Part shown: piece by piece, positions 20,988 through 64,000 of the stretch | How positions within the stretch are numbered: position 1 is the stretch's first letter | Layout of the letters: every line of letters starts with the position of its first letter | From: Solanum dulcamara | Taxonomy: Eukaryota > Streptophyta > Magnoliopsida > Solanales > Solanaceae | Length of the DNA: 64,000 nucleotides | NCBI RefSeq assembly: GCF_947179165.1 | Contig: NC_077243.1 | Coordinates: forward strand, 10,691,001 to 10,755,000 | Direction: 5' to 3' | Program-made: the position numbers and the translations under genes | The notes under the pieces: generated by a model | The model's input: only the letters and a program-made list of their open reading frames with translations | The model's database searches: none | What the model was told of the DNA's origin: nothing

Positions 20988-21080
<93 letters not shown>

Positions 21081-30000: not shown

Positions 30001-33000
30001 GGATGATTTCGAAGTAAGCGTCTCATTCAAGGCAGGAGATAAGAGAAGGGTTGACTTTTGGGGACATAAGTAGTGTGAGGATATTTTACTGAAAAAGAAC
30101 TTGCCAAGCTTACTTAGAATATCTTGCCAAAGGGACATCGATGATACAACAAAATAGGGAATCACAAGGTGGAGACTTTTTGGGACTTGTGATTTAGGAG
30201 GGACTTCCACGACCAGGAGATGGCCGAGTTGCAAAGATTGTTGGCTCTATTCCACAAACAAGTAATTGCGATTGATATTTCTGATACTGTAGTGGGGGAT
30301 GGGGAAGAACGGCATGTTCTCTGTAACGCAGTTTGGATATCCAACGTGCTGAGAAAGGTGTAATTTTTCACTTGGCTAGCTACGAGAAGGGTGATCTTGA
30401 CGGTGGAAAATTTTAGAGAGCAAAAGGTTGTCTACGTCAGCTGGTGTTACAAGTGCAAGGATGCGGGAAAGGATGTAGATCATCTTCGTCTTCATTGTGG
30501 TCTTTCCGTGAGGTTATGGTGGGATATGTTCGAACAGTTGTTACTTCTTGGGCTATGCAAACTATGAAAAAATTAATGGTCAGTTGGAAGAGTGGGAGGA
30601 GGAGGACGTAAAGAATGGAACTTGGTTCCATTAGCAATACTATGGATTGTCTGGAGAGAGAGAAATAGGAGAGCTTTTGAGGGGATAGAGTCGTGCTTTC
30701 CTCTATTGAGAATTAGCCTTCGATCCCTTATTTACTTTTGGTGCACCCACAGAGTTCCCAATAGTATAGAAGTTTTGGATGGAGTTTGTAGAGAATCATC
30801 TTTTGTTGTAGATTCTTTACCTTTTGGCATATTCCTTGTATACGGTCACGTCTCTGACTATGCTTATGAACGAATAAACATTTAATTGATAAAAAAAAAG
30901 AATAATAATAATAATAATAATAATAACAACAATTAAATATTCAAACTTGCTCTAAATATTTATGCATTCTTTTCATTCCAAATGGTCAACCATAATTTAA
31001 GCATATTTTTTTAAACTCTTTTTATATATTTGAAATATTTTTAGTCAAACCCATATCCATACATAGATCAATACCCCCCGAATCTTAAAATTTAGCTCAT
31101 CAAGGATCCGACCTCTAGATTTCCACCAGTAATTTCAAAGGCGCGTTTAAGCTCTGAAGCGAGGCTCAAAACATGTTGAGCACTTCGACTCGCTTAATGT
31201 GCGATTTCGTATCGTCAACAAGGCTTTAAGACATTTTCATATTTTTCCTAGCCAATGAGTGTTTCCAAAAGAGACTATTCTAACAATTGAAATTTCACTT
31301 TTATCTCAATTTTTCAATTTTGTTGTCCATGTATTTCTTATTCGTCCAAAGTATGGGTAAGGTCAAGTACACAGTTCCCTCTCCCCATGCCCCACTTTTA
31401 GGATTACACTTATATGTTATTGTTGTTGTATAATTTGTTATTCGTGCTTATAATTATTAGTTTTGCACTAAGCATATATACTTGTATTTTTCTCCATTCA
31501 CGCCTTTTTTAATTAAAGCTCACGATTTACTTGCGCTTTGTGCTTAAATTCCCAAAAGACTTTTGCGCTTTTTGCTTTTGATTACACAAAATTTGCACTC
31601 GTCTCGTACATCCACACCCGAGTCTCAAGTAGTTAGTTGAAACTTAGATACAGATTACATAAAGGATTGGGAATCACAACTACAACAATAACCATAGTCA
31701 GTACCACAAATTCACATCTCCAGTGTGTTATTATACTTGTATTTTCTTGTTGTGTACCAATGGCGACTGAAGTAACTGAAAACCATGGATGAAATTATCC
31801 ATTTAACAAAATATTCCACTAGTATAAACAAGAATCAAGACTACCGTTACACAATCCAAAAGCTGAAACGTTAAAAGAACAAACCTTAAATAGTCAGTTG
31901 TTTTCTCAACAAGACCACGGCCAACAAAGTATCTCTCCTGGAAATATAATCAATATGTCAAACAAAATGAACGAAGCTAAGTGGGAAGAAAGTCTGATAA
32001 TATATAGAAGAATACCTGATAGATCCACTTAAAAAATTGGAAAAAAGATTGATCAGACATTTCCGATAGCTTGTGACAGGCAGGTAGCTTCATCAGGAGC
32101 GCAAAAACTATTCGTATGCCAGCATAAACACCCAGAACCAGGATATAAAGGCGGAAATAAAAAGGGTCTTTGTTTGTATCCCTCTCTTCTAAAAGTTTCC
32201 TGTATTGTGATTACATCAGATAGCAATCTTTGAAGAGAAAATACAAGAAGAAAAAATAACTCCTAGAGAAAAAAGACTTACAGATAGACATATATTACAA
32301 ATGCTGAGCTCACACCGGTCCAGAAAAACCTGATAACAATCCTTGATATAGCCATTCCTCTCGCAGTACTGTAGGCCCCAAACATGAGAAGCACATCCAA
32401 CAAACCTAAAGAAGAAGCGAGATGACACAGTAAACAAGAATGAAAGCAGAAGAAAAGAAAAGACTAATAATACATAAGAGCAATAGCACAGCTGCCAACT
32501 TACTCTCTATGAAATTCATAACGGCAAATGTAGGGCCAACACTGAGCAGTTTCTTGAAAGTGTCCAGATTGATTTTCTCATGGCTGAAGGCTATGATTGT
32601 TAATGCCTGAACATTAGAGGAAAAAGGCGATAAAACCCCTTTTATGTTTTAGATCAAACTTGGAGGATAAGCCAAAACAAAACAAAAAAACTTGGTTGAT
32701 AAGCAGCATGAGAAAAACGAATATAACCTGGAACATGACAACCAAAAAGATCCACAAACGATGAAAACTTCGGTACAAGTGAAGGAAAGTCCGATGCTCA
32801 ACAAATGTGCTTTTTCCAGTCTGCCGGTTCAGAGGAATAACAAAAGAGGACAAAATTAAAACTAAAGAAAAATGAGAACAGCATAGTACAGTTAATATTG
32901 AGGAAATGGGGATATATACTGGGGGAAAAACTAAAACAAACATAATGCAAGTCAAAATGATTAAAAGGCACAGTAAAAAACAAGCGAAGGAACAGCATGA

Positions 33001-36000
33001 GAAACATTAGTTAATCTCTTGGGACACGTGACAAATTAAAACCAGATTCCTCAAACCCAAATATTCATGCCTACAGAAAGCCCTTTTAGGAGTCATCCTA
33101 AACTTCACCAAATTCAGTCACGAGCCAAAAGCAGTCTTAACACAATCCACAATCATGAAATAGGATAGGAAGACCTTAAGAAACAACTTTCCTCACCATG
33201 AACAGAAAACAACAACAACAACCCAGTGAAATCCCACAACGTGGGGTCTGGACCATGAACAGAAAACTAAATCAAAATTATTAGATATGTAACAAGTCTA
33301 GAGAATCAAATAGCATGTTTCAGTTTGTCATAAAAATCAACCCAAAGAGACATTCTATCATGTGAGACAGTTCATCGTGTGTTTATTATCTGATGACACA
33401 GTAATGTTCTCACGCTTCACATTCAAGTCATTAGTGATACAAATAGAAACCAATTCAAGACACAAAATGAAAAACTAGAAAATACACATAGAGACACAAA
33501 ACAGAAGACTATGTCACGCTTCATCGGAAGGACATATGGAAAAAGTATTTCAACTCTAGATATTGTATATGTAGCATCTAACTAACCAACTCATAAGTCG
33601 AGACAAATTTTAGTACAGAGTAAACCAACCCTTTTGCCTTTCTTAGGAGGCTTCCGCAAGAATGAGGAATCCTTCTTAAAAGGCCAACCCAACTCAAAGC
33701 AAGCAGGTGACCTGGATAAGCATCAGTAACAAAGAATGAGATCCAATTCCATGGGGCTAAACTCATTTTGCACATTAAGAAGGAATGTACGGGCTAAATT
33801 CAAATTGCACATTAAGAAGGAATGTACCAGAAATATTCATTAAAATCATCATAATTCCGCCACTTTGAGTGCGCAGCTTTCCCATTATTGTTTCTTGCAG
33901 CTTCCTGCAGATTAAAAAAAAACGTCAGAAAGAATAAACATTGGTAAATAGGTTAAAGAAAAGTAAACAACTCCCAGAACAAGCACAAAATTTACTGAAA
34001 TATTACAAGATATCAAGATAGCGTTCTAAAGATTTTATGAAGAGTAAACACCATTGCAGAACATACTAACACATTCCTCTACCAACTTGCCAAAAAGATA
34101 TCAAATGACACTACAAATATTTTAGAAGATGCACATTCAATACGCTGCACATACACAAAACCTACTGCTTGTAAAACATCACGCACTGCATAACAAGGAT
34201 TCACCACACCCTTCTGAACAAGATTTTCAGCCATTACAGGAATGTAGCTACAATTGCCACTATCCACAAACCAAAATGGTTGACTATGCTAAAAGATAGA
34301 CCACTGCGGTTACAATACAGTAATACAGAGCATCAGATAATCCTTATTATGGTTGATATTGGATATGACGAGCAAGAGTCTTAAGTATGGGGAGTTGATG
34401 TTCGGTCTAAAATGCATATATTATGTTATTTTTTGCCTCGATTGCACCATAGGAGCACAGAACGAAGGGTACCAAACAAAAGTCAGAAATTAAAAGGTGA
34501 ACATCATTCATTACCAAACAAAAGTCAGAAATTAAAAGGTGAACATCATGCATTTGCATTGAGATCCTTGAAGATATGGAAGCATACTTTTTTTAAAAAA
34601 AATAAACGAGGGAAATGGAAACATAATATGACAAGTATCCACAATTGAATGCACAAGCATTTTCCTACCACAGGCTGGGGAACAAATTGGTTAAGCACGC
34701 ATACTACCTTTCATAGCATAACTAAGCTATTCAAACTTCACCAAATTCTTTCAGTTTATAGCGCTCCAATTTTGATTTTGCAAGCACATTTTCAAGTAGT
34801 GTTCGATCGATTATGCATTAATCAATATTCGATTGATTGGAGCCAAGATCATCTCATCTTCATGGCGCACAATCAGATTTCTTATCAAGTATTATTCATA
34901 ACTCAAACAGTAGTTGTAAGTACAGAAGTGAATTAAAGTTGGAGTAACGGGATAAAATGAGATAAAAGGGCTCACCGATACTATTGTATCATATATAGGA
35001 CGAATAATTTGTTCCAGAAAAGACACAGACTGATTCGCGCCCACACAACTCGTGGCTGGACTGGCTTCTCCATGATCCAAAATAGCATCTAATTCTCTAG
35101 CCATCTGCATAATTCAAAATAACATGTGAACCCATCAAGATACATATTCAAATATTTCTGTGGCCCCAATTTGGAGTCCACATGTTATGCAAACGGAGAG
35201 ATAACTAGTGCTGGAGGCTACTTCGCGAAAAGAAAAAGAACACTATAACATCCTTATAATAATCTCATCTTAACATTTATCTTAAAATAATTTCAAACTG
35301 ACACCACAATGACAAAAGCAGAAAAGGTCGGTAATACTTTAGAGTCTGCATAAACTATCCAACAACGACTAAGCACCAATTATCATGCACTCAACAACAT
35401 ATTTCCACTCATGTTCTCCAAAACTGTCCATTAGGACACGAGAAAAACTGGACTCATGACAGATTCACAGTCACTCAATCCAGTTCACTATGAGTACAAA
35501 TGCTATGACCTTATGACAAGTTGGCAACATAAGTACGACGGCAAGTACTATTGAGTGGAAGGAGCATATAAACACTTCGGCTATGTGAAGCATGTGATCA
35601 TGTATATGGCACATAGAAAATGAAGACACATGTGTTGCCCAATCAATAAGTGCAAACAAGTTGAATGGGCTTGCAAAATATATGAGCAACATCTCAATGT
35701 ATTTGCCACTTTGTTATCAAAAAATCCAAGGAATTCTTTTTCTTAGCATATTTTGATGAATGCAATCAAATAGAACACTCAGAGGCACAGATTTTAATTC
35801 AAAAATGTGATAAAAGATCTTCGGCATTCAGAAGAATTACTATCCCAGTGCGAAGAGAGGCAGGCCAACCAACTAAGAGAAGCAGTCTCACTTATGGGAA
35901 GTAGAAACAGAGCCAAGAGGTTTTCAAGGAATACACTCCAAGATAGAAGGATATCAGTTGACTTCCAAATAAACAAAAGCTGCGTAAGTTAATTGGAGAA

Positions 36001-39000
36001 AATGAGAACATATCTTCTTTTCGAAGGAGAGGAGGGAGAGAACCAAGAAAGAGGAATTAGAAGCCTCGGGAGAAAAAACATTAGCCAGATATTATCAACA
36101 AGAACACAAGAAAACAAACAGAGAAAGGAAGAGAAATCCCCAGTCAACTGCCTTAAAGATTACTGAGCATATAGTAGGTGGTGATTTAGACACTTCAAAC
36201 TAGAAGAAGTGCAACAGTACAACACAGTTGGAATGGACATCCTATAAGACTGAAGTGGTTAAATAAAGGACAGATCACAGCGTCATCTTTTTGACTGTCA
36301 TGAATGCCATGATTGCAAATGAAGCTGTGGACTCAAGAAACAAACAAAAGAAACCTGGTGTACTCTGTAAGCTGGATATAGAAAAGGCATATGATCATGT
36401 TAACTGGAAGTACTTAATAAAGATGCTGGAAATGATGGGTTTTGGGCAGAAGTGGCTGAATTGGGTAAAATTTTGTATCTCAAAAGTTAGCTTCTCAACC
36501 TTATCAATGGCAATCCTGCATGATTCTTTCAAACTCAGAGAGGACTCAGACAAGGTGACCCCTTGTCCCCCTTTCTGTTCCTGATCACTGGAGGGCTTAA
36601 ACAACATGATAAAGACAGCTAACTTGAGAGGGTGGTTAAGGGGCTTTGATTTGGCAAGCGAAGGCACTGAGAGATTAGAAGTTACACACTTGCAATATGC
36701 AGATGACACCCTAATATTTTGTGATGCTGAGGAGGAACAACTAAAGTAGCTAAGGGCGATTCTAGTTCTGTTTGAAGGTGTATCTGGGCTACATATCAAC
36801 TGGAGAAAGAGTGTGATGTATCCTATTAATGAGGTGAGCAACATGAGTTGGTTAGCTTCAATCCTGGGTGGTGAAATAGGAGCATTACCAACTACTTATT
36901 TGGGAATGCCCTTGGGAGCCAATTCTAAGTCCATAGAAATCTGGAACAGTGTGACTGAGAAGTGTGAGAAGAGACTAGCCAAGTGGAAGACTCAGTACTT
37001 ATCCATGGGGGGTAGACTGACCCTTATCAACTCAGTACTTGATGCTTTACCAACCTATATGATGTCCCTTTTCCCTATTCCAGCAGGGGTCATTAAAAGG
37101 TTGGATAGCATCAGGAGGAATTTCTTGTGGCAGGGTAACAAGGAGAAGAAAAATTTTCACTTGGTAAAATGGAAGGAAGTGAGGACTGATAAGAGGAATG
37201 GAGGGATGGGGATAAAGAATCTACAACTTCAAAGCAAGGCCCTAAGCATGAAGTTGTTATGGAAGTACACAAACAATAATCAGATGCTATGGAGGAAGGT
37301 GATTGGAGCCAAATATGAGGAAGAGGACAACTTTACAACTAAAGAAGTGAACACTCCTTATGGGGTAAGGCTCTGGAGATCAATCAGGAGTCTGTGGAAT
37401 GAAGTTAAAAGCAACTCAAAAATAAAAGTTATGGATGGAAGGAAGACCAAATTTTGGAAGGATAACTGGCATGAGAAAGGGAACATGGAAATACTTTTCC
37501 CAGACATTTACAACATGGTTTTGTTCCAACAAAGCACCATAGCAGAGCTATGGTCCCCACAGGGTTGGAATTTCAATTTCAGGAGACATCTGAATGACTG
37601 GGAGATCATGAGAGTGACTGAATTTTTCAACACAGTGGACACTTTCAATGGAGTGCAGACAGGTGAGGATGTTCTGTGGTGGACAGGAGATGACAGGGGA
37701 ATTTTCAAAGTCAACAAAGCTTATAAGATGATGGATCAAACAAACCAGTAGGGTACAAAATGGCCCTGGAAACAAATATGGAAGAGTAGGATACCTCATT
37801 AAGTTTCATGCTTTGTCTGGTTAATGGCTAAGGAAGCAGTCCTTACAAAGGACAATGTCATGAAAAGGAGGATAACCTTGTGCTCCAGGTGTTTCCTATG
37901 TGGTGAAACAGCTGAGACAGTTGAGACATCTATTTTTACATTGCCAATACACCCAACAATTATGGAGAATATTTCTCAGCATTAAAGGCATTTCCTGGAC
38001 CATGCCTAGGAAAGTGACTGAGGCCTTAATGAGCTGGGAGGAAGAAGGGGTCCATGCAAAGGACAGACATAGATGGAGAATTATACCTAGTGCTATATGG
38101 TGGGCTATCTGGAAAGAGAGGAATTCAAGATGTTTTGAGAACATAGAGAACAATGTGCAGAAAGTTTAACTTAACTGCATTTTTCTTTTAGTTTTTTGGC
38201 GTAATCAATCATACTCAAATGACACTATCTCGATTATTGATGTTCTAGATTCAATCTAATTATAGAGAAGTGAAATTAGGAGTACACTTGTATATAAGGT
38301 TTCAATACAACCCATGTATTGTCTTGTGATATAATACAAAGTTACCAAGTTCAAAAAAAAAATTAGATCCTACCTCAACCAAGGAATGCTGGAAAAAAGT
38401 TTAGGACCTTAACCACGAATATTATATAACATTTAAGTTCCAAACAGGATAGATAGTATAGTCAATCCAGCTATCAAGTGTCATACCAGATCCTATGTAT
38501 TACAATGATTGGCAGCATTCACCTTACAGTATATTTTGAAGAGACCATAAGCCTGTCATGCTTCAGGTTCATTGAAACAGTCTAGGTTACATCATAGGTT
38601 CAGCTAAATAAATAGTTCATCAACTAAACATGATTTACATGGTTTTGAAACCGCACCTTTCAGCTACTACACATTGTAATAGAATATCAGAAATTACATC
38701 TTTATAAGTCTTATGATATTTGAGTCAGCTTGTGTAAAACGTAATACTTGAGTAGTTTCATTTTAGAAAATATATCTATTATCTTTGATTTCACGCATTT
38801 ATACTGGGACAGAATATGTCAATAATCTATTTAGCAAATCATCACTAGAAAAGACGGGCACGAATTCCCAGGCGGGGAAACTATCTCACACAAAACAGCT
38901 TATCAAACAGCAAAATAGCTCCAGTTCAACCACTAATCAAATAGCAAAAGAAACAGAAAATAGAGACTGACTTACATGGTGGAATATGTAGCAGATGCAT

Positions 39001-42000
39001 TCAGGAAGGAAACGGACATTTGCAGCTTCACCCCATATGCAGAAGTAGAGTGAAACAAGAAAAAGCTTTCTGTCCCTGTTAATGGCTTCTAATCTGTTGA
39101 CATGATTGAAATGAGAATATATTGTAAATTACATAAGCACTATATATAACAAAGTAGCAGAACTGACTTATTCCACACAAGCCGAATTCGCAAGTATCTA
39201 CACCACTTGATGTAATTATCCAAGACCTTCAGAAACACCTCTGTGATAACCTTCTCATCTATTGTCTGTCAGAGAAAAAGCACATAATTTGGAGTGTAAA
39301 CCTTATCCCTGAAAATGAAGGTACAGATACGATTTGGTATATAAACTGTAATGCCACTTTCAACTGCATTGACCATTTGAGAGTATCAGCTTAAGGTTCC
39401 TATTAAGTCTTCAAGGGAAAAAAAAATGGATTGTATAGAAGATAGTGCAGCCAACCATCAGAAAGAACTTTGACTCATAAGTAGACCTATATCAGAATGT
39501 CTCCAAAACTATTTCAACCAACAAGCTCACAACAATTATTCAAATATTTAAAGAAGACAAAGCTATAAATGTAATCCTGAAGGGTGATGCTGATGCATAT
39601 ACAGCTGAAAAGAGAAACTAGTAGGGAGTTAACGACGATGGTTACTCATCTCAAGGCTGTGACACAGCAATTCTTCTAGATACATTTGAAACGGAAATAT
39701 GCTCAAATGCATTAACTTGAAGTTCATATGACGATTCTACCATGTGACATCTCAGTCATCATATGAACAATGTTCCATATGCTTATTCAAACATAAATAG
39801 AAAAAGAGCCAGTTTGGACATGCAATATGAACCATGATTTGAAATCATGATATGAAATCAGACTGATATTAAGTTGAGGTGTTGTTTGGACATGCAATTT
39901 AGATTTCTTAAGTTGTATTTATTTTCATAAACTTGAAAAACCCACAAGTTGTGAAAACTATCAAATTTCCCAAATTCTTACACGATCTTACCAAATGAGC
40001 ACACCATAATTCATAAACAAGATATCAGGATATCCTAATGCGCCGCATTGATAAATCGCATATCTCCATGTTCCTTCTATAAATAAATAAATGTTTGTAA
40101 TTACAAACTTTCAAATACACATAATTTTATAAAGACCCACTAGTCAATAATAGTAGTAACTAGTTATATTTAAATATAATCCTTCCATATGGTACGAACA
40201 ATCTATTTACGTCAAGCATGAGTTCGTTTTTTGACAAAACATGAAATGATGGGTTTTTTTTTACAGAACATAAACTTATGGGTCAAGTATTATATTTAAA
40301 ATAAATTGAAATCATGACTTGGTATCCCAAATCATGCTTTTTGGAGAACATGATCCCAAATTGCATTTCCAACGCTAATTTGAAATCATGACTTCATATA
40401 GCATGTCCAAAAGCAAGCTAAGACAGCTTTAAAATTGTGGTTATAGCCTTATAGGGTTGAAAATATAATAGATATCCAAGGAATTATCAATATTAATAAG
40501 CAGGACATGATGAAAGAGGGAAAAAAAATTAAAAGTAATATATTGAAAATAACTCACTTCGCCTTCTTGCTTATCAGTCAACTAGGGGATATCTAGTCGA
40601 GAAAGAAAACTACTTCCTTGAACCACGAAGGTATTACATGACCAGTGGGGAGATATACCATTAAGTATTCTCATTTTAACAGTGTTAACAAATTCACCAC
40701 CACACTAGCGAGCACATCTCCTAAACCTTTCCATGTAACTCTTATTTTGTATATAAAATTGTACACAGAGCTTTTACCCCTTCAATAAACTGAAGACTTA
40801 TATTTTATGCAACGACATCAGTACACCAAACAGATAACCAGGTGCTCTAATAATCAATTAATAACTCACTGGATCTGCCTCAACAGGTATCCCAAGTTGT
40901 GACTGGGCATTTGCAACAATGAGGATGACATTCTCGCGCTGGTTCCTTACATTGTCTTTCTGCACATAAGAAAAACACAGATCAGCAAGAATAGTCACAC
41001 AACTCAACAAAGTAGCAAGTCAGAACTAAAGTTATAGGACATGAAACCACTAGAGCTAATGGTTAGATTTACAAAATTGGCTTTGCCTATCCTATAGTTG
41101 ATCATTTTCATTTGCAACTTGCATACAGAGGTATACAATACACAATCCTATGCAGTTTCAGTGAGATTGGTTTGGCAAGACTGTTGTGCCAAAGGAGCAA
41201 CATCCCAACTCAAAACAACGAGGCCTCCATGGAATAGAAATCACCAACTTTTCCCCATAAGAACACTTTTTACAGCTAAAGAAGTTCTCGTGACGGTCAA
41301 AGCTATGCTAAAGCATTCCACCAGTGCAATATCTTGAAATTTAACTACTTACCAATATTATCTGACGAAGGAAATTTTGCAGCATTACAAGGAATTATGC
41401 AATAAGACAGTATTTGGTTTTGTTAGAGAACAAAGGTAATGGCTCATATTTATACATACCCTACAATGTATTTTGGAAGGCAGGATAACTTTTTTAATAG
41501 CCAACAAGAGAAGTTCACTAATCAAATAGCAAATACTAAATTTGGTAAAGTGAAGCTCACAAATTCTTTTTGAGTGTCTTACAAAATTAGAAATAAGGCA
41601 TCTCAAAATGGTATTAAACACCAACCTGAAAGCCAAAGACATATTCTAAAAGATCAAACATATCCATATCCCGCTGTCCAGGAATCTCAAAATCAGCGGG
41701 AAGCTGAGGGAACTGCTCAGTGTACTTAACTGCTGACATGGCACCCAGAACCTGCATATGTTTCCCAGTACAATTACTTCTCTCTGACACAATACATGAA
41801 TGAATATAACGGATCTGTAAAAATATTGAAGAATAGATGATTCCTCAAAGACAGCCAAGCATATAGACATATTATAGAATAGATGAACCTCCAACGGCAG
41901 CAAAGAAGTGTAGTCCCAAAATAAAAGGAAACCTAACACTCAATCCTCACGTTCAGAAACTAATTTAAATTAAGCAGAATACCAATTAAACAGGTGACAA

Positions 42001-45000
42001 GCATAACATGCAGTTTGTCCTTATCAGCTTCAGTAGTGTCAGGCACGCAAGCCCGCATTCTTCTAACGTTAAATAGGTATTAAGAAAGGAAGAAAGCACT
42101 GGTATTCACAAACCTGTTGTCGGGAAGTTTCACTGAAGAGAGACAGGAAATAAAATCAGGTCATACAACCAAAATAAATAATAAGGCCACACTTCAGAAC
42201 AGGCACTAAACTTAGAGCTAAAAGATTAAGTGATAAAAGGGAATGGTTAGGAGATTGATAAATTTGATAAATAGACAAATAAGCAAATAAATATTTCAAC
42301 ATTCTCGACTGCCTGAATATATTTGCACGCAAGTATCTACGTAACACAACCCTATTCTGGTTTGACTAGCATAGAAACTAACAAAGTTCCAAATGGATAT
42401 AGGAGTTACCTAGATATATGCTTCAAATTATAGTTGAAGTGAGTAAAAGTGGTTAATTGTTGAATAGATCGCACATCAAGTTATAAATATTTCGCATTTT
42501 GGCTAAGATGGAAGATATTGTTGTCTAAGGTATAGAGTCAAACAAATTGGAACGCAAGGAGTAAGAAGATGAAGTTGTTTATGTGGTACTAATGATTAAA
42601 GCAGAATGGGAAAATCTTACTGCAGAGTGGTAATAGAATAAAAGATAAAATCAACATTCTTACCTCTGGGAAGAAACCAATTGCATTGGTCAATGATGGT
42701 GCCTCTAGAGGAACAATATTGTATGGTGCAAGTTCCCCCGATAAAGTAGCATCAGATTTCTTGATCCTTTTCAACTGACCAAACCATGAAAGAAGTCATA
42801 AGTAGGGAACTAGTCACAGACAATACTCAGACAAAAATACAAAGAAGCGAAAAGAAATATTACCTCCTCCATTATAAGCCTTCCCACACCATCAGGAGCT
42901 GCATCTTTACTCAGAGACTCCATCACTTCAACCACAGCCCTCAAGGTAGCGAATACCTTTCTCATTTCTGAAAATCTAAGTCCCAACCTAGAAAGAATAA
43001 AAGAACAAAATAATCAGTGAAGCTTTTTCGTTTACAAAAAGATCAAGCAAGGATCAACAAAAAAATCTAAGTTCCGCCCTCAACTTCTGGGATAATAAAA
43101 CAACTATTCAACAATAAAAATTCATTACTGTCGCAATTTTGATCATGATACAGATTATATGCTGAAAGTGAATATGCTAGCCAACTGGAAGAAAGCTGTC
43201 TCAAAGCACTGCAGCAAATAGAAGATGAACAGAAAAGATGCCTCAGCAGACCAAGCCACTTTTACTATGATTCCTAAACATTAACCAACCCACTCAAAGG
43301 ACACCAAGGCAAACAATGACAAGTGTCTCAGTTTGAATGCTGCAGAACCACGTGAAACTACAGAATATCTTCGAGGCTATAAATGACAATTTAAGCTGAC
43401 AAGATTTAATGACATATTTACTATTTTCTCTCAGGATATCTAGTAGTGCATATCATAAAGACTAAAAACAGATTCCTGATGGCTGATAGAAAATCCCTCA
43501 TATGATGCGTAATGCTGCAATCAAATGTTTCAGTATCAGACATTTCAAGCCATAAATTTACATCATTATCATGAAAAGTTTGACAAGATTCTTACAACCC
43601 ATTTTAATTTTAAAAAGAAGATTAATTCCATCTCTCAGGCAAGCACAATCTTGAGCAATTGAATCAGCAAACCTATCACTCCTTACTGCAAAATACACCA
43701 AAGACGAATACGAAGTACGCAAAGTAACACTCAGATATAGCAGTAACAGAAACATACTCTCCTAAATTTGCACTAACTGCTCCAGATTCACGCCATTTTT
43801 GCTCCTCTCTTTGAATATCGTCCACTTTGTGCTGCCTTTTGTATTGCTGATAAAATTCCCATAAGCGTTCCATGTCACGATTACGGTCTATCCGAGCCCC
43901 TTCCTTTTTGGCAAGTTTTTGCTGCACATATTGAACTCCAATCAAACTTCATCACACTCAAAGGATACAGGACATGCTAAAGGGTTAACTGATTACTGTT
44001 TCACATATAAGATTAGGTGGGAATTTTTTGGCTTTTTGTTGTAATATGCAGGATGTAAAAGGATGAAAATTCCATGATAAATTACATAGAATCTTAACAA
44101 GGATAGGGCTTCCACGGTAGGAAGCCTTCTTTTTTTTTCTTGCAAAAAATTATATAAATATAAAATGATAGATTTTTTTTACAAAATATAAACTTGTGGG
44201 TCAATTATTGTATTTCAAAAATGTGAAATCATGAAATGAAATTCCCAAATCAAGCTTTTTGGAGAACTGGGAATTTCATCTCATGATTTGAATCACGAGA
44301 TGAAATCGCATGTCCAAACGCCTACGTAGTTAATTATCTAGTTTTTGTAATTGTTTAGTTTATTGTTGCTTTCAATTCTTAATTTGAAATACAAAAACAA
44401 CTTCTCTTCTTTTTTTTTTGCAGAATCAATTGATGAAGAAAAGCAAATTGATAACAAAAACAACTTACAATTTGGGTAAAAGTTAGGTTAGACAATCAAT
44501 CACATACGAGTACATCTTTCACATGACACCCAAGATTCCCTATGGGATTCGACCCCAACCTTGTTGGGCTCTATATTTGACACTAATCGATCTACACCAT
44601 AGTTAGGGTGTAATTTGAGTATATCAACACCCATTCCTATATACAAATAAGAACTACATAGGTGCACCAAAAGAAGATAAGGGATCATAGACTACTACTC
44701 GATTGAGCAAAGCTCATCTCCAGCATTTCAAAAACTCTCCTATTTCTCTCTTTCCAAATGAACCACATTAAAGCAAAAGGAATAACATTTCAATTTTCAT
44801 GCCTTGTGCCTTCGTCTCCTAGCTCCACTCTTTCAATTGAACATCAACCCTTCATCGGATCTTGGCATTACCCAACTGACGCCAAACCATGGAAACGTAT
44901 CCTCCCATAACCCCATGGCTAATTTGCAATGTAACATAATATGATCGACGTCCTCACCAGCCTCCCTACATAAGAAACATCAGCTCATGTAGACAACCTT

Positions 45001-51698: not shown

Positions 51699-52015
51699 CC
51701 TCAAAAAAAGAAAAAGAAAAAAGTATAAACAAAACCCTAGGGCTCTACAAATCAATCAACTTATCTATGTAGAACCCTAAAGTAAGTTCAAATTCAATTC
51801 AAACGTCTCAGATCTAATTGGAAATGAAATGAATCGGTGAATACGTCAAGTTTTGGTTTTTCATTTTCTTTCTCACTTTTTTCTTCTAACGCGTGGTGGG
51901 AATTTGCTTTAAACTTTCAGCCTTCACCATGGAGATTAAGGAAGTAATTACCTGTGTTTTAGACCATTTTAATTATCTGTTTCACTCGTTTTGACTCGTC
52001 AAAGAAAAAAATGTG
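51699..52015 (-). promoter_or_regulatory. Probable 5' leader and proximal promoter of CALS10
   Basis: The 300 bp before the ATG contain a pyrimidine-rich stretch in the sense strand next to the start (TTTTTCTTTTTCTTTTTTTG), common in plant 5' leaders. I cannot place a transcription start or TATA box with confidence. Called by position only. Confidence 0.4.
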
Positions 52016-52860
52016 AGGTCTGTCAGAATTGGGTGGTCTGCGTTTTTTTTTTTCTATTAGAAAGATGAAGAGAAGTGTTGGGTCTAGATGTTTTAAGTGG
52101 AGTTGGGCCGGGTTTTGTTGAAACTTTGGGCCTAATAAAGGTCCAATTTTGGACGGAAATGGTCCTAAATTGGATTTAAATTGGGAAACTTACATAAATA
52201 TAATATATTAAGAAAATATTTATCATTTATAATAATAATATTTTTTTCATTAAACACTTATAATACATTTATAATACAGTTTTAATATAATTTTAATACA
52301 TATTAGCAAAAATAATTTATAAAACTCATATAATACAAGTTTTATTCATAGATAATATATTTATCACGCACTTTAATACACTTATAATACATTGTGTCAA
52401 TTTTTTACCAAACAAGTATATTATAAAAAACACTTATAATACACTTATATTGCATGCATAATTCACTTTTAATACATGATGGATATATCATAATACTGTT
52501 ATGTATTACTATAGATGATAATAAATAAAAAGTATCGCTAAAATCAATAATTATTTATTAAAAAGTGTTCTCCCTGATAATTTTTTCTTTAAATTGATCT
52601 TGAAATTGACTCAAACAAATAGGTAAAGGGACCAGGTCCCTTGGGAATTTTTCATCGATAATTTGAATCCAATGAATACGATACGAAGCGAATTCAAATT
52701 AACTGATAAGCTTCTTATTTTAATAAAGTAAAATAATTATTAAATTACCAAAATAAAATATTGATTACACGTTAACGATAATTTGACTAATAAAAAAGAC
52801 GTAAATACGTAATTGAGTTAAATATCATTTTTGATATGTTTTTTTTAATATTAAAAAAAA
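52016..52860. other. AT-rich upstream region of CALS10, no gene seen
   Basis: Very AT-rich DNA with repeated words such as AATACACTTATAATACA at 52240-52500. No open frame of note, no splice-linked exons and no clear TATA box on the minus strand were recognised. It may contain promoter sequence of CALS10, but nothing specific can be pointed to. Confidence 0.5.
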
Positions 52861-52864
52861 AAAA

Positions 52865-53042
52865 GGGCAGCCCGGTGCACTTAAGCTCCCGCTATGCGCA
52901 GGGTCCGGAGAAGGGCCCGACCACAGGGGTCTGTTGTACGCAGCCTTACCTTGCATTTCTGCCAGAGGCTGTTTCCAAGGCTTGAACCCGTGACCTCCTA
53001 GTCACATGGCAGCAACTTTACCAGTTACTCCAAGGCTCCCCT
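52865..53042 (-). mobile_element. Au-like SINE (tRNA-derived) with target duplication
   Basis: On the minus strand it starts GGGGAGCCTTGGAGTAACTG (A box TGGAGTAACTGG), has the B box GGTTCAAGCC, then AGAAATGCAAGGTAAGGCTG and CGGGCCCTTCTCCGGACCCT, and ends CCGGGCTGCCC followed by T residues, as Au SINEs do. Direct repeats GTTTTTTTTAATATTAAAA flank it (52838-52856, about 53045-53064, one T more on the right). 178 bp, a good full-length size. Confidence 0.88.
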
Positions 53043-53524
53043 TCGTTTTTTTTTAATATTAAAATCAATAAATATGAAACTATATATTATACGTATATCG
53101 AGATGTATATATTTTATAGAAAAATAGAAAAATTGCCTTGAAAATGATTTTAAAAGATTTTTTTTGATTTTGAAAACAATTATTTCAAATTGTTTGAAAT
53201 TGAAGAAACTTGAAAATTAATTTAATTTTGGAAGGCCAAAATTGGGTGTCAACAGCAAGAAGTTGCTTTAGCAATGTAATAATACTAAATAATGAATGGT
53301 GTAAATGTATAAAATAAGGAAGAGAGTACTAAAATAAGAATTTCAAAAATTAATGACTAAAATTAAAATAAGATAAGAAATTTTGTGTAATTAAACCTCA
53401 CAAATTTATGTTGAAAATAAAAGAGAGAGAAAATTTAATTGTCAATTACACAAACTACAAAATAATAATTACAATAATGATAAAAATTTTAAGAAAATCA
53501 TAAAAATCAATGTGTTATTATAGA

Positions 53525-53536
53525 GGGGGGGGGGGG
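53525..53536. repeat. G homopolymer run
   Basis: Twelve consecutive G residues in otherwise AT-rich DNA; length may be unreliable in sequencing. Confidence 0.9.
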
Positions 53537-53989
53537 AAGCTTAACCATATTTTGTAGAAACATTAACATCTAACCACATCTCTTCGAGACCTTACTCATT
53601 CTTGACACATTGTTGTGACTTCAAAACAAATGGTACCATAATAACAAGAACATATCTATTTGTTTTCATTAAAATTAAGAGGGTTAGATCTAAATTCACA
53701 TTTGAATTATTAAATTATTATTTCTATATTAAATAATAAATAACTGAGATTACTTATTTTTTAACATCTGAATGTCCATAGCTTATTTTTTTCTAAACAT
53801 AACAAAATATACAAACAATGTATATATTTAAGATCATTGAAAATGAGAACAAAAAATATCAAAAAGCAGAAGATCCTATGAAATTTCTTGGATTGGACTG
53901 GGTTAACCAGATTATACTCTAAATATTCACCCAGTGTTTTGGGCCTGATGTTTAACAAAGAGTAAATACACAAATTTTATTAGTTTAAA

Positions 53990-54875
53990 GTCTAGTTATG
54001 TGTCTTTTTGTTAGTTTTCGAAATTATATTTTGTACCATATTTACTTCGGTAAATACATGTATTTGGCGCACTTAGATTCATCTAACTAGATATGTGTGT
54101 GCCAAATTAGGTGTAATTTATTCCAAGTACACCATATTCAAGCGTGATTTGTATGTATCTGAATACACTGACTTTCTGACTCATATCTCTCCTCTCTCGC
54201 TAGCCTCTCTCCCTGTCTATCTATATATTCAAAATGTATCTGATATCAAAAATACATGTATCTAATATCTTTGATACATGTATCTGACTTAAAATTTGAA
54301 GAAGTGATGTACATGACTTGAAATCTAGATTGAGGCTATTAAGCAGTAAGACAATATATAATTACTTCAAACCGTAGAGTGGAATAGTATTTATGGTATG
54401 AATGTTGGCGTAATTAGGTAGTTTTTTCAACACAAATCCAATTAGTTCAGAACCTAATTACGTGTCTTCACTTTTATTTTCGAAATTACCTTCGCATTTA
54501 CTTTGCCAGATACATGTATCTATCGCACTTAGATATATGTATCTCATATACATACTAGTCAAATTAGGTATAGTTTGTTCCAAATACATTATATTCAAGA
54601 GTGATTCACTTTTATTTGAAATATGTTGACCCTCTCTCTCGCATCTATCCTCTTTCGCTCACCTCTCTCTCTCTCTCTCTCTCTATGTATGTGTATTTTA
54701 GAATGTATTTGGTATCAATGATACATGTATTTAGTATATTTGATACATGTATTTGACTTAAAAACCGAAAAAGTGGTGTATTTGACTTGAAATCTGGTAC
54801 AAAATTATTAATTAGTGACACAATATGCATTTTGCATTAAAATTTATGGTAGAAATGTTTGTGTAATTTAATAGT
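53990..54875. repeat. Two diverged direct repeats, about 460 bp apart
   Basis: 53990-54430 and 54450-54875 share ordered blocks: TTACGTGTCTT/TTATGTGTCTT, TTTTCGAAATTA, ATACATGTAT, GCACTTAGAT, TCTCTCTC-rich tracts and GATACATGTATTT. An old tandem duplication with no coding sequence; it includes a (TC)n tract at 54666-54683. Confidence 0.7.
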
Positions 54876-55027
54876 TTTTCCTTCAATAAAGGATACTGGG
54901 TTATTCGCATGAATGTCCCTAATTTGGGAACCTTAAGTAATAATAGTGCGAAAAAAAACACTTTTTTATAATTTTTTTTTAAAAAACACAAAAAAATTCG
55001 CTAGCCATAAGTTATGCATTATAAGAC

Positions 55028-56139
55028 GGGTGAAAATAATTTTCACCCAGACTTTGTTTTTAAAATCAAACTCCCCCCTTAATTTTGAACAATAATCAAA
55101 CTCCCCCCTTTATCCATGCATTGTCCATTTTACCCTTGTTATATCACATTTATTTAATATATATTTATATTATATATAGTTTACTTTTTATCATAGATAT
55201 TTATAACTTTTTCTTTAAGTACTTTAACATTATAAGTAAAATAATATTTTAAAGAATTTATCACAAAATTTAATATTATTCTTATGACCATTATTTCAAT
55301 ATAACATGCATTAAGTGTGTGTATATGTATGTATACGTATATTTTTTCTTTTCTCCATCATTTTACTTCATGCGTTTCATATTACTTGACTCTTCTTGAT
55401 ATATATGACACCTCTTAAAAAATTAATTAGAGGTGTATTTTACTAAACTAACATGTTTGAAAGCTTAAATTTGACTATTACTACTTTATGCAGTTATTTA
55501 ATTTTAAGGGTAGACATAAAAAGATATTAAAAATTTCTTAAATTTCATAAATTGGACAAGTAAATTAAAACAATTATTTTTAGAATGAGAGACAAGTAAT
55601 ATAAATGGCGGTGGTTATTCTCTTCTATATAAATAAACAAGTTTGTTTGACATTGATGGAGTATTACATAAATTATAATCTAAAATAATTTAAAATCTAA
55701 ATAATACAATCTTTAAATTTTTTCCTTAATTAAATTAATTATTTGTATTTCCTACATTGAAATATATTTGTATAGTTATTATTCTCTGCTATTTTCACTT
55801 CTATAAATAAATATTAGAGTTTTGATTATTATTATTAAACTAATTTTCTCATTATGCTAATTTACTTCATTATAGAACGTCATTAACTTATTTACTTAAT
55901 TAGTATTTTTCACTTTTTTCCAAAAAATAATGTTTATGCTTTTATGAAAAGTTTGTTACATTAAATAAAAAAAATGAAAATATCATGATTTCTAAAGAAG
56001 TAAAAAAAATTGATAAAGAAAGGTATAATAGGCATTTTAAAAATTTAATTAGGGGAAAGGGGAGAGTTTGATTATTGTTCAAAGTTGAGGGAGGAGTTTG
56101 ATTTTAAAAGCAAAGTTGAGGTGAAAATAATTTTCACCC
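55028..56139. mobile_element. Non-autonomous DNA transposon with long inverted ends (MULE-like)
   Basis: About 80 bp inverted ends: left GGGTGAAAATAATTTTCACC, AAAATCAAACTCCCCCC and AACAATAATCAAACTC; the right end carries the reverse complements. The flanks TTATAAGAC (55019-55027) and TAATAAAAC (56140-56148) are a plausible 9 bp target duplication with two changes. The 950 bp interior is AT-rich without a transposase. Confidence 0.78.
55350..55680. mobile_element. Possible Stowaway-like MITE nested in the long-TIR element
   Basis: TTCATGCGTTTCATATTACT and GAGACAAGTAATATAAATGG are weakly inverted and resemble common short TIR elements. Boundaries uncertain. Confidence 0.35.
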
Positions 56140-56311
56140 TAATAAAACATATGTTCAATTTTAGAACATTGTACCTTAAGAAATTTACACACGAACTTAT
56201 GTCTTTTACAGGCATAACATGTTCCTTGAATTTTTTTTTTGGACTTAAACATAACTTATGTCTTGGGGCATAAGTTTAGTAGTATGTACTTTTATTTTGG
56301 GGTGTAAATTT

Positions 56312-56533
56312 AGAGCCTGTTTGGATTGATTTATCAAACCTATTTTAAAGTTATTTTTAGCTTTTGAGAGTGTTTGACAAAGTTAACTTAAAATGACTTT
56401 AAAAAAGATAAAAATCAAAAGTAGGACTCTCCCTATTTATTTATTTTTAGTTTTTTGACTTAAAAGTCATTTAAGTTTAACTTTTTTTTATATATATAAA
56501 AGCTATTTTTTTCCGCCAATCCGAAAGGACTCT
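56312..56533. mobile_element. MITE with GTTTGGATTG-type inverted ends
   Basis: Left AGAGCCTGTTTGGATTG, right CAATCCGAAAGGACTCT, imperfect inverted repeats of 17 bp. AT-rich interior with AAGTCAAAA words. Confidence 0.65.
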
Positions 56534-57070
56534 TAGTAACATGAACTTGTGTCTTATAGTTATAGAAACATAACTTGTTAGCAATTCTTTTTTTAATAAT
56601 AAGAGTAAATATTTTATGTTGCGAATTAGATAGCACTGCATTTATGCCGCAGAATAAACAATTTTGCCAAACGAAAGTAAGTTATAATTAAGGATATTTC
56701 GAAGGATAAATTTTCATTAAATAATCAGTAGATGCCACACATGTCTGGTTGCCCACAAATTAAATCACAATCTATAATAAAGATCAAAGGTCTCAAATTT
56801 TTAGAGAAATGAAAGTTTTTTTTCTCTCTCTCTTTTCTTTAGTTTTTCTTTTACTTATCCAAAACAAGGGAAAAAGAGAGGCTATTTATTAATTGAACTA
56901 ACATGATCGTTAATGTTAATTTTATGATAGTCGCTAAATATCCTTTTTTTTTAAAATAATAATTAAAACTTTCATGTAATTTTAACTTTAAACTAGTAAT
57001 GGGCTTAACCACTCATGCTCGCCGTTTTTTTTCAATTGTATAAAAATCTCAACGCCAAAAAAACAAGCTA

Positions 57071-57269
57071 GAGGTCATTTGGATTGGCTTATAAGCTGTT
57101 TTTTTTTTTTGAGTGTTTAGCTGACCAACTTAAAGTTATTTCGTGCTTAAAATAAGCCCAATAAATAATTGGGTTTATTTGGATGGATTTATTTCAAGCA
57201 GTTTATAAGTTGAAAACAGTTTATAAGTAAAAAAAAAGTTAGTCTGCACCTACTTTTTATTTTTTTTTA
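57071..57269. mobile_element. MITE fragment cut by the duplication junction
   Basis: Starts GAGGTCATTTGGATTGGCTT and contains GTTTATAAGTAAAAAAAAAG and CACCTACTTTTTATT, as in related MITEs, but its right inverted end is missing because the duplicated block begins at 57270. Confidence 0.6.
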
Positions 57270-57746
57270 ACTTATATGTTATTGTTGTTGTATAATTTGT
57301 TATTCGTGCTTATAATTATTAGTTTTGCACTAAGCATATATACTTGTATTTTTCTCCATTCACGCCTTTTTTAATTAAAGCTCACGATTTACTTGCGCTT
57401 TGTGCTTAAATTCCCAAAAGACTTTTGCGCTTTTTGCTTTTGATTACACAAAATTTGCACTCGTCTCGTACATCCACACCCGAGTCTCAAGTAGTTAGTT
57501 GAAACTTAGATACAGATTACATAAAGGATTGGGAATCACAACTACAACAATAACCATAGTCAGTACCACAAATTCACATCTCCAGTGTGTTATTATACTT
57601 GTATTTTCTTGTTGTGTACCAATGGCGACTGAAGTAACTGAAAACCATGGATGAAATTATCCATTTAACAAAATATTCCACTAGTATAAACAAGAATCAA
57701 GACTACCGTTACACAATCCAAAAGCTGAAACGTTAAAAGAACAAAC

Positions 57747-60700
57747 CTTAAATAGTCAGTTGTTTTCTCAACAAGACCACGGCCAACAAAGTATCTCTCC
57801 TGGAAATATAATCAATATGTCAAACAAAATGAACGAAGCTAAGTGGGAAGAAAGTCTGATAATATATAGAAGAATACCTGATAGATCCACTTAAAAAATT
57901 GGAAAAAAGATTGATCAGACATTTCCGATAGCTTGTGACAGGCAGGTAGCTTCATCAGGAGCGCAAAAACTATTCGTATGCCAGCATAAACACCCAGAAC
58001 CAGGATATAAAGGCGGAAATAAAAAGGGTCTTTGTTTGTATCCCTCTCTTCTAAAAGTTTCCTGTATTGTGATTACATCAGATAGCAATCTTTGAAGAGA
58101 AAATACAAGAAGAAAAAATAACTCCTAGAGAAAAAAGACTTACAGATAGACATATATTACAAATGCTGAGCTCACACCGGTCCAGAAAAACCTGATAACA
58201 ATCCTTGATATAGCCATTCCTCTCGCAGTACTGTAGGCCCCAAACATGAGAAGCACATCCAACAAACCTAAAGAAGAAGCGAGATGACACAGTAAACAAG
58301 AATGAAAGCAGAAGAAAAGAAAAGACTAATAATACATAAGAGCAATAGCACAGCTGCCAACTTACTCTCTATGAAATTCATAACGGCAAATGTAGGGCCA
58401 ACACTGAGCAGTTTCTTGAAAGTGTCCAGATTGATTTTCTCATGGCTGAAGGCTATGATTGTTAATGCCTGAACATTAGAGGAAAAAGGCGATAAAACCC
58501 CTTTTATGTTTTAGATCAAACTTGGAGGATAAGCCAAAACAAAACAAAAAAACTTGGTTGATAAGCAGCATGAGAAAAACGAATATAACCTGGAACATGA
58601 CAACCAAAAAGATCCACAAACGATGAAAACTTCGGTACAAGTGAAGGAAAGTCCGATGCTCAACAAATGTGCTTTTTCCAGTCTGCCGGTTCAGAGGAAT
58701 AACAAAAGAGGACAAAATTAAAACTAAAGAAAAATGAGAACAGCATAGTACAGTTAATATTGAGGAAATGGGGATATATACTGGGGGAAAAACTAAAACA
58801 AACATAATGCAAGTCAAAATGATTAAAAGGCACAGTAAAAAACAAGCGAAGGAACAGCATGAGAAACATTAGTTAATCTCTTGGGACACGTGACAAATTA
58901 AAACCAGATTCCTCAAACCCAAATATTCATGCCTACAGAAAGCCCTTTTAGGAGTCATCCTAAACTTCACCAAATTCAGTCACGAGCCAAAAGCAGTCTT
59001 AACACAATCCACAATCATGAAATAGGATAGGAAGACCTTAAGAAACAACTTTCCTCACCATGAACAGAAAACAACAACAACAACCCAGTGAAATCCCACA
59101 ACGTGGGGTCTGGACCATGAACAGAAAACTAAATCAAAATTATTAGATATGTAACAAGTCTAGAGAATCAAATAGCATGTTTCAGTTTGTCATAAAAATC
59201 AACCCAAAGAGACATTCTATCATGTGAGACAGTTCATCGTGTGTTTATTATCTGATGACACAGTAATGTTCTCACGCTTCACATTCAAGTCATTAGTGAT
59301 ACAAATAGAAACCAATTCAAGACACAAAATGAAAAACTAGAAAATACACATAGAGACACAAAACAGAAGACTATGTCACGCTTCATCGGAAGGACATATG
59401 GAAAAAGTATTTCAACTCTAGATATTGTATATGTAGCATCTAACTAACCAACTCATAAGTCGAGACAAATTTTAGTACAGAGTAAACCAACCCTTTTGCC
59501 TTTCTTAGGAGGCTTCCGCAAGAATGAGGAATCCTTCTTAAAAGGCCAACCCAACTCAAAGCAAGCAGGTGACCTGGATAAGCATCAGTAACAAAGAATG
59601 AGATCCAATTCCATGGGGCTAAACTCATTTTGCACATTAAGAAGGAATGTACGGGCTAAATTCAAATTGCACATTAAGAAGGAATGTACCAGAAATATTC
59701 ATTAAAATCATCATAATTCCGCCACTTTGAGTGCGCAGCTTTCCCATTATTGTTTCTTGCAGCTTCCTGCAGATTAAAAAAAAACGTCAGAAAGAATAAA
59801 CATTGGTAAATAGGTTAAAGAAAAGTAAACAACTCCCAGAACAAGCACAAAATTTACTGAAATATTACAAGATATCAAGATAGCGTTCTAAAGATTTTAT
59901 GAAGAGTAAACACCATTGCAGAACATACTAACACATTCCTCTACCAACTTGCCAAAAAGATATCAAATGACACTACAAATATTTTAGAAGATGCACATTC
60001 AATACGCTGCACATACACAAAACCTACTGCTTGTAAAACATCACGCACTGCATAACAAGGATTCACCACACCCTTCTGAACAAGATTTTCAGCCATTACA
60101 GGAATGTAGCTACAATTGCCACTATCCACAAACCAAAATGGTTGACTATGCTAAAAGATAGACCACTGCGGTTACAATACAGTAATACAGAGCATCAGAT
60201 AATCCTTATTATGGTTGATATTGGATATGACGAGCAAGAGTCTTAAGTATGGGGAGTTGATGTTCGGTCTAAAATGCATATATTATGTTATTTTTTGCCT
60301 CGATTGCACCATAGGAGCACAGAACGAAGGGTACCAAACAAAAGTCAGAAATTAAAAGGTGAACATCATTCATTACCAAACAAAAGTCAGAAATTAAAAG
60401 GTGAACATCATGCATTTGCATTGAGATCCTTGAAGATATGGAAGCATACTTTTTTAAAAAAAAATAAACGAGGGAAATGGAAACATAATATGACAAGTAT
60501 CCACAATTGAATGCACAAGCATTTTCCTACCACAGGCTGGGGAACAAATTGGTTAAGCACGCATACTACCTTTCATAGCATAACTAAGCTATTCAAACTT
60601 CACCAAATTCTTTCAGTTTATAGCGCTCCAATTTTGATTTTGCAAGCACATTTTCAAGTAGTGTTCGATCGATTATGCATTAATCAATATTCGATTGATT

Positions 60701-60966
60701 GGAGCCAAGATCATCTCATCTTCATGGCGCACAATCAGATTTCTTATCAAGTATTATTCATAACTCAAACAGTAGTTGTAAGTACAGAAGTGAATTAAAG
60801 TTGGAGTAACGGGATAAAATGAGATAAAAGGGCTCACCGATACTATTGTATCATATATAGGACGAATAATTTGTTCCAGAAAAGACACAGACTGATTCGC
60901 GCCCACACAACTCGTGGCTGGACTGGCTTCTCCATGATCCAAAATAGCATCTAATTCTCTAGCCAT
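57747..60966 (-). pseudogene. Partial second copy of CALS10 (exons 10-17 only)
   Basis: Exact copies of exons 10 (60838-60966), 11 (59690-59766), 12 (59492-59573), 13 (58590-58682), 14 (58366-58468), 15 (58144-58267), 16 (57878-58061) and 17 (57747-57799), with intact frames and splice sites. It ends in intron 17 at 57270 without exons 18 and later, so it cannot make a full synthase as it stands. Exons 1-9 could exist beyond the window. A transcript starting there would run toward the promoter of the complete gene. If the assembly is wrong, this is not a separate locus. Confidence 0.85.
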
Positions 60967-62136
60967 CTGCATAATTCAAAATAACATGTGAACCCATCAA
61001 GATACATATTCAAATATTTCTGTGGCCCCAATTTGGAGTCCACATGTTATGCAAACGGAGAGATAACTAGTGCTGGAGGCTACTTCGCGAAAAGAAAAAG
61101 AACACTATAACATCCTTATAATAATCTCATCTTAACATTTATCTTAAAATAATTTCAAACTGACACCACAATGACAAAAGCAGAAAAGGTCGGTAATACT
61201 TTAGAGTCTGCATAAACTATCCAACAACGACTAAGCACCAATTATCATGCACTCAACAACATATTTCCACTCATGTTCTCCAAAACTGTCCATTAGGACA
61301 CGAGAAAAACTGGACTCATGACAGATTCACAGTCACTCAATCCAGTTCACTATGAGTACAAATGCTATGACCTTATGACAAGTTGGCAACATAAGTACGA
61401 CGGCAAGTACTATTGAGTGGAAGGAGCATATAAACACTTCGGCTATGTGAAGCATGTGATCATGTATATGGCACATAGAAAATGAAGACACATGTGTTGC
61501 CCAATCAATAAGTGCAAACAAGTTGAATGGGCTTGCAAAATATATGAGCAACATCTCAATGTATTTGCCACTTTGTTATCAAAAAATCCAAGGAATTCTT
61601 TTTCTTAGCATATTTTGATGAATGCAATCAAATAGAACACTCAGAGGCACAGATTTTAATTCAAAAATGTGATAAAAGATCTTCGGCATTCAGAAGAATT
61701 ACTATCCCAGTGCGAAGAGAGGCAGGCCAACCAACTAAGAGAAGCAGTCTCACTTATGGGAAGTAGAAACAGAGCCAAGAGGTTTTCAAGGAATACACTC
61801 CAAGATAGAAGGATATCAGTTGACTTCCAAATAAACAAAAGCTGCGTAAGTTAATTGGAGAAAATGAGAACATATCTTCTTTTCGAAGGAGAGGAGGGAG
61901 AGAACCAAGAAAGAGGAATTAGAAGCCTCGGGAGAAAAAACATTAGCCAGATATTATCAACAAGAACACAAGAAAACAAACAGAGAAAGGAAGAGAAATC
62001 CCCAGTCAACTGCCTTAAAGATTACTGAGCATATAGTAGGTGGTGATTTAGACACTTCAAACTAGAAGAAGTGCAACAGTACAACACAGTTGGAATGGAC
62101 ATCCTATAAGACTGAAGTGGTTAAATAAAGGACAGA

Positions 62137-64000
62137 TCACAGCGTCATCTTTTTGACTGTCATGAATGCCATGATTGCAAATGAAGCTGTGGACTCAAGA
62201 AACAAACAAAAGAAACCTGGTGTACTCTGTAAGCTGGATATAGAAAAGGCATATGATCATGTTAACTGGAAGTACTTAATAAAGATGCTGGAAATGATGG
62301 GTTTTGGGCAGAAGTGGCTGAATTGGGTAAAATTTTGTATCTCAAAAGTTAGCTTCTCAACCTTATCAATGGCAATCCTGCATGATTCTTTCAAACTCAG
62401 AGAGGACTCAGACAAGGTGACCCCTTGTCCCCCTTTCTGTTCCTGATCACTGGAGGGCTTAAACAACATGATAAAGACAGCTAACTTGAGAGGGTGGTTA
62501 AGGGGCTTTGATTTGGCAAGCGAAGGCACTGAGAGATTAGAAGTTACACACTTGCAATATGCAGATGACACCCTAATATTTTGTGATGCTGAGGAGGAAC
62601 AACTAAAGTAGCTAAGGGCGATTCTAGTTCTGTTTGAAGGTGTATCTGGGCTACATATCAACTGGAGAAAGAGTGTGATGTATCCTATTAATGAGGTGAG
62701 CAACATGAGTTGGTTAGCTTCAATCCTGGGTGGTGAAATAGGAGCATTACCAACTACTTATTTGGGAATGCCCTTGGGAGCCAATTCTAAGTCCATAGAA
62801 ATCTGGAACAGTGTGACTGAGAAGTGTGAGAAGAGACTAGCCAAGTGGAAGACTCAGTACTTATCCATGGGGGGTAGACTGACCCTTATCAACTCAGTAC
62901 TTGATGCTTTACCAACCTATATGATGTCCCTTTTCCCTATTCCAGCAGGGGTCATTAAAAGGTTGGATAGCATCAGGAGGAATTTCTTGTGGCAGGGTAA
63001 CAAGGAGAAGAAAAATTTTCACTTGGTAAAATGGAAGGAAGTGAGGACTGATAAGAGGAATGGAGGGATGGGGATAAAGAATCTACAACTTCAAAGCAAG
63101 GCCCTAAGCATGAAGTTGTTATGGAAGTACACAAACAATAATCAGATGCTATGGAGGAAGGTGATTGGAGCCAAATATGAGGAAGAGGACAACTTTACAA
63201 CTAAAGAAGTGAACACTCCTTATGGGGTAAGGCTCTGGAGATCAATCAGGAGTCTGTGGAATGAAGTTAAAAGCAACTCAAAAATAAAAGTTATGGATGG
63301 AAGGAAGACCAAATTTTGGAAGGATAACTGGCATGAGAAAGGGAACATGGAAATACTTTTCCCAGACATTTACAACATGGTTTTGTTCCAACAAAGCACC
63401 ATAGCAGAGCTATGGTCCCCACAGGGTTGGAATTTCAATTTCAGGAGACATCTGAATGACTGGGAGATCATGAGAGTGACTGAATTTTTCAACACAGTGG
63501 ACACTTTCAATGGAGTGCAGACAGGTGAGGATGTTCTGTGGTGGACAGGAGATGACAGGGGAATTTTCAAAGTCAACAAAGCTTATAAGATGATGGATCA
63601 AACAAACCAGTAGGGTACAAAATGGCCCTGGAAACAAATATGGAAGAGTAGGATACCTCATTAAGTTTCATGCTTTGTCTGGTTAATGGCTAAGGAAGCA
63701 GTCCTTACAAAGGACAATGTCATGAAAAGGAGGATAACCTTGTGCTCCAGGTGTTTCCTATGTGGTGAAACAGCTGAGACAGTTGAGACATCTATTTTTA
63801 CATTGCCAATACACCCAACAATTATGGAGAATATTTCTCAGCATTAAAGGCATTTCCTGGACCATGCCTAGGAAAGTGACTGAGGCCTTAATGAGCTGGG
63901 AGGAAGAAGGGGTCCATGCAAAGGACAGACATAGATGGAGAATTATACCTAGTGCTATATGGTGGGCTATCTGGAAAGAGAGGAATTCAAGATGTTTTGA
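62137..64000 (+). mobile_element. Second copy of the intron-9 L1 LINE (runs off right edge)
   Basis: Identical to 36275-38138 as far as I compared, including YADD at 62558-62569, the stop at 62610 and the 312-codon frame at 62675-63613. It was copied as part of the large duplication, not by separate retrotransposition, since the flanks are copied too. Confidence 0.88.

Follow-up and report, generated by a model that had tools for sequence, protein, structure and literature searches.

The window, by which we mean the whole 64,000-nucleotide stretch of Solanum dulcamara DNA analyzed here, contains the 5′ portion of a large minus-strand gene which, judged by its deduced protein, is callose synthase 10 (CalS10/GSL8). 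Its model, from spliced alignment with the potato protein, has 51 exons running from an ATG at 51698 to -18510 in window numbering, followed by a TAG. The complete gene product has 1,908 residues without internal stops or gaps, 1,841 of which are the same as in potato callose synthase 10, and carries an FKS1_dom1 domain (PF14288) at residues 349–457 and a glucan synthase domain (PF02364) at 1029–1722. Its closest named proteins among the matches listed are callose synthase 10, and a protein tree places the gene, with modest support (80/86), next to those of potato and tomato. Exon 1 is located at 51491–51698 (minus strand) and exons 1–17 together span 31885–51698, with exon 17 at 31885–31937; exon 18 follows at 27475–27535, and the remainder of the gene from there onward occupies 1–27535 and runs past the window start. 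Exons 1–19 are the same in an independent first model, and both models give exon 18 a GC donor at 27475 instead of GT. In Arabidopsis, gsl8 mutants are reported to be mostly lethal, with failure of cytokinesis (PMC6249969), and by analogy the gene is probably of similar importance in S. dulcamara.

The size of CalS10 (∼70 kb) is explained in part by LINE-like and Copia-like open reading frames in its large introns (8800–26400; element names assigned by reading). The introns also contain a minus-strand match to the bacterial-type small-subunit rRNA family at 1647–2109, shortened to 463 bp and probably organelle-derived, and two direct copies of a 228-bp sequence at 6179–6669 (83% identical, with starts 263 bp apart).

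Self-comparison of the window and its flanks identified a 25,862-bp unit repeated head to tail at the CalS10 locus. Copy 1 occupies 31408–57269 and copy 2 occupies 57270–83131, of which 57270–64000 lies within the window. The two adjoin directly, with copy 1 ending at 57269 and copy 2 starting at 57270, ruling out a dispersed or inserted copy. The extent was established by extending the sequence 20 kb leftward and 40 kb rightward; the match stops at 64000 only because the window ends there, and the flanking sequence carries it to 83131. The unit comprises 5.57 kb of DNA 5′ of the ATG (51699–57269, the upstream region of the complete gene) together with CalS10 exons 1–17. Its left border falls in intron 17, 477 bp beyond exon 17, and its right border at 83132 sits 5′ of the copy-2 ATG; about 1.8 kb beyond that point a divergent GDSL lipase-type gene begins. 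A genome search (32 contigs, 942,432,443 bases) with the block's first 2,001 bp gave full-length matches at the two copies only among the best 40 of 808 candidates, the other 38 of these 40 being short repeat matches of 78–84% identity.

The original prediction, made from the window alone, had described a 6.7-kb piece. Its observations hold: 31408–38138 recurs in the same orientation at 57270–64000 (6,731 bp identical but for T34594/A60456), the spacing is 25,862 bp, exons 10–17 lie within the block in agreement with the new gene model, and the second copy, placed about 5.6 kb upstream of the ATG, is 5,572 bp from 51698. The window edge had, however, clipped the match, and what had been read as exons 10–17 placed upstream of the start is in fact a 25.9-kb unit with promoter region and exons 1–17. 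The original reading, a very recent partial tandem duplication of a gene essential for cytokinesis, is supported as to the kind of event, with an extent (exons 10–17 only) that was too small. Because the unit includes promoter region and exons 1–17, the complete gene keeps its own 5.57 kb of upstream DNA, and copy 1 joins the single-copy exons 18–51 to form one complete open gene. A perfect 152-bp tandem direct repeat at 47843–48146, in an intronic LINE-like element (named by reading), has its copy-2 counterpart at 73705–74008 (by shift) and, lying in an identical stretch of both copies, predates the 25.9-kb duplication.

Across 25.9 kb the copies show five differences, three of them substitutions and two one-base indels: T34594A, A51459T, 53525 (G-run length), 57099 (T-run length), and C57146A. 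All are noncoding and three fall in the 5.57-kb upstream region; the exons are free of differences, with all 17 copy-1 exons (1,982 coding bases) found letter-perfect once each in copy 2, and the copies agree without interruption for up to 16,864 bp. All of the differences but C57146A involve homopolymer runs (T34594A moves the boundary between runs of T and A, and A51459T interrupts an A run). Homopolymers are the usual error sites, and short-read polishing can add or erase differences between copies, so these four may be polishing or sequencing errors, and the age has to be estimated from one to three substitutions. At the Arabidopsis mutation rate of 7 × 10−9 per site per generation, three substitutions correspond to ∼8,300 generations (Poisson limits 1,700 to 24,200); errors at the homopolymer positions would make the duplication younger still. 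Its formation is therefore likely to date back no more than about ten thousand generations. An older duplication whose copies were kept almost the same by gene conversion would leave little divergence too, and tandem copies are well known to convert one another. Such tracts tend to be short and patchy, however, and the identity seen here is even across 25.9 kb, noncoding DNA included, right up to the borders, making this explanation highly improbable.

The junction (57260–57276) joins the end of the unit, a T run and an A, to its start. Seven bases, ACTTATA, are common to both joined borders; they occur at 57270–57276 and also at the outer breakpoints 31408 and 83132. As a result of this microhomology the placement of the unit is ambiguous by up to 7 bp, and the limits given for copy 1 may shift rightward by that amount. 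Among 1,000,000 random position pairs in the region, 0.075% share at least 7 bp, and for pairs of A+T-rich sites (≥80% A+T) the figure is 0.45% (2,269 of 500,000), or 0.43% in another sampling. A chance match of 7 bp is therefore unlikely but possible, with odds about sixfold higher under the A+T-rich control.

The two borders lie in two different interspersed repeats that have only these 7 bp in common at the borders. The left breakpoint at 31408 falls in a repeat at 31344–31432 (limits approximate), of which 31347–31426 matches a copy ∼200 kb away and which splits a second repeat (about 31205–31343 and 31433–31587). The end pattern of this left-border repeat was matched at 2 of 34 loci, the window's own copy being one of the two. 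The right end of the unit cuts a high-copy, A+T-rich palindromic element, identified by repeat search and hairpin folding, part of which lies at 57087–57269; the uncut element is found outside the window at 82950–83195, and a second, inverted copy occurs at 83731–83972, ∼0.6 kb past the right border. Dispersed copies of the element have 82–89% identity (best 40 of 3,831 candidates), and a query containing it returned at least 69 listed matches, part of them in a neighboring repeat. Its hairpin folds better than all 200 of 200 shuffles (z −4.53). We read it as MITE-like. Interspersed repeats at both borders might suggest unequal crossing-over between them. That process requires homology much longer than 7 bp, and border sequences as different as these make it barely credible as the origin. 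With the borders in different repeats, no long homology drove the duplication, and microhomology-mediated joining likely made it.

We accordingly consider it probable, at roughly 0.83, that the locus carries a real and recent head-to-tail duplication of 25,862 bp, mediated by microhomology, that left a working CalS10 and, upstream of it, a 5′ fragment lacking the catalytic domain. On this explanation the junction would be present in the DNA of the plant and not in the assembly alone. A break or a stalled replication fork within the right-end palindromic element, perhaps at its hairpin, may have started the event, followed by end joining or template switching, between which the sequence here does not discriminate.

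The main competitor is that the plant has no duplication, and that the assembly joined two alleles in succession or used one sequence twice. This we regard as unlikely, although it has to be weighed with care given that introns and dead transposons are nearly identical between the copies. Most HiFi reads are no longer than the identical run of 16,864 bp, which is thus perhaps beyond read span, and because of this run the assembler may have misjudged copy number, order, or the phase of the differences. A like layout, with most of a gene repeated beside itself, is also known, from an older assembly (PMC9516828). According to the same source, false duplications usually show reduced read depth and a gap separating the copies, such gaps being a primary sign (PMC9516828). 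Here there is no gap between the copies, nor any N in 324 kb (20 kb to the left, the window, and 240 kb to the right), and the same 324 kb holds no other repeat longer than 600 bp at ≥95% identity. The daSolDulc1 assembly is described as having been built with hifiasm from 27× HiFi reads with 10X polishing, for a published total of 946,926,110 bp in 145 contigs and 105 scaffolds (contig N50 44.2 Mb, QV 57.2), and its curation combined purge_dups with the removal by hand of 15 haplotypic duplications (PMC10585204). An artefact would thus have had to survive a pipeline in which haplotypic duplications were purged. Contiguity on this scale and the absence of N in 324 kb make a scaffolding error or misplaced haplotig unlikely, and the misplaced haplotype contig offered by the original prediction as the alternative to a real event is disfavored by the gap-free junction, the contig N50, and the 7-bp microhomology, since arbitrary contig ends rarely have 7 bp in common. 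String-graph contigs, as produced by assemblers of the hifiasm type, draw their sequence from reads, and a gap-free junction in such a contig should derive from at least one read. At a QV of 57.2, the two copies, 51.7 kb in all, would be expected to contain ∼0.1 errors, compared with the five differences observed. If the duplication were nonetheless false, a false gene fragment would persist in a high-quality, purged, gap-free HiFi assembly.

If the duplication is real, as we favor, copy 2 is by its predicted coding content a 5′ CalS10 fragment without the glucan-synthase (catalytic) domain. A Pfam domain search of the protein encoded by exons 1–17 found PF14288 and did not find PF02364. Within the window the fragment is represented on the minus strand by exons 10–17 (57747–60966, with exon 17 at 57747–57799 and exon 10 at 60838–60966), exons 1–9 being situated past 64000. 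Copy 2 would likely be transcribed, as expected from upstream DNA of 5.57 kb that nearly matches that of the complete gene, and with its own copy of the promoter region it would give a truncated or degraded product because an exon 17–exon 2 splice breaks the reading frame. The predicted splice places a stop at residue 663, two residues after exon 17, and predicted retention of intron 17 places one at residue 688. When exon 17 is joined in turn to the 16 acceptors of exons 2–17, premature stops follow in 12 cases; the acceptors of exons 4, 9, 12, and 16 are in frame and leave the reading frame open to the natural stop. A fusion protein with repeated exons is therefore possible in principle, and would need exon skipping; an in-frame exon repeat like KMT2A-PTD is disfavored, the acceptor of exon 2 being among the 12 that lead to a premature stop.

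From these predicted products, the transcript would most likely be degraded or encode a half-protein without activity, and the complete gene would not be affected. It would still work and the duplication would then be near neutral. A more consequential reading is that the 25.9-kb duplication segregates and that the second GSL8 promoter drives a truncated, membrane-anchored N-terminal half together with transcripts that read through into the complete gene, tuning GSL8 dose. Such tuning would act by interference or through a dominant-negative half-protein at a locus that is lethal when lost in Arabidopsis; we think it very unlikely. The duplication is of an ordinary type among plant structural variants and stands out for its freshness, its readable borders, and the importance of the gene. 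If real, it provides a nearly unaged example of the partial duplication of a large and important plant gene in which the joining bases are still legible.

Our literature search found no paper on callose synthase 10 with a partial tandem duplication, and the closest comparisons come from other systems. KMT2A-PTD in leukemia is a partial tandem duplication within one gene. As in that case, exons of a single gene are tandemly repeated via a break in an intron. Unlike KMT2A-PTD, the CalS10 unit includes the promoter region and first exon, so that the downstream copy is a complete gene, and the joint between exon 17 and exon 2 is out of frame. In plants, the tandem duplications of BOR1 described in Arabidopsis thaliana from Cape Verde, one of them ∼38 kb, show microhomology of 3 and 6 bp where they are joined, and in one case 26 bp of novel sequence (PMC13037888). 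The CalS10 duplication resembles them in being recent, head to tail, and joined at a few bases of microhomology. It differs in extent, as the BOR1 duplications are described as covering the whole gene and raising its dose (PMC13037888), whereas the CalS10 unit has only 17 of 51 exons. The evidence differs as well, the BOR1 duplication having been reported as checked against reads and an independent assembly and as present in several plants (PMC13037888) and the CalS10 case coming from one assembly. With the false heterotype and homotype duplications described in genome assemblies (PMC9516828), the CalS10 locus shares a gene segment lying beside itself with little difference between the copies. 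Unlike those, it has no gap between its copies, it lies in a purged HiFi assembly of high contiguity, and its copies meet at a join marked by microhomology.
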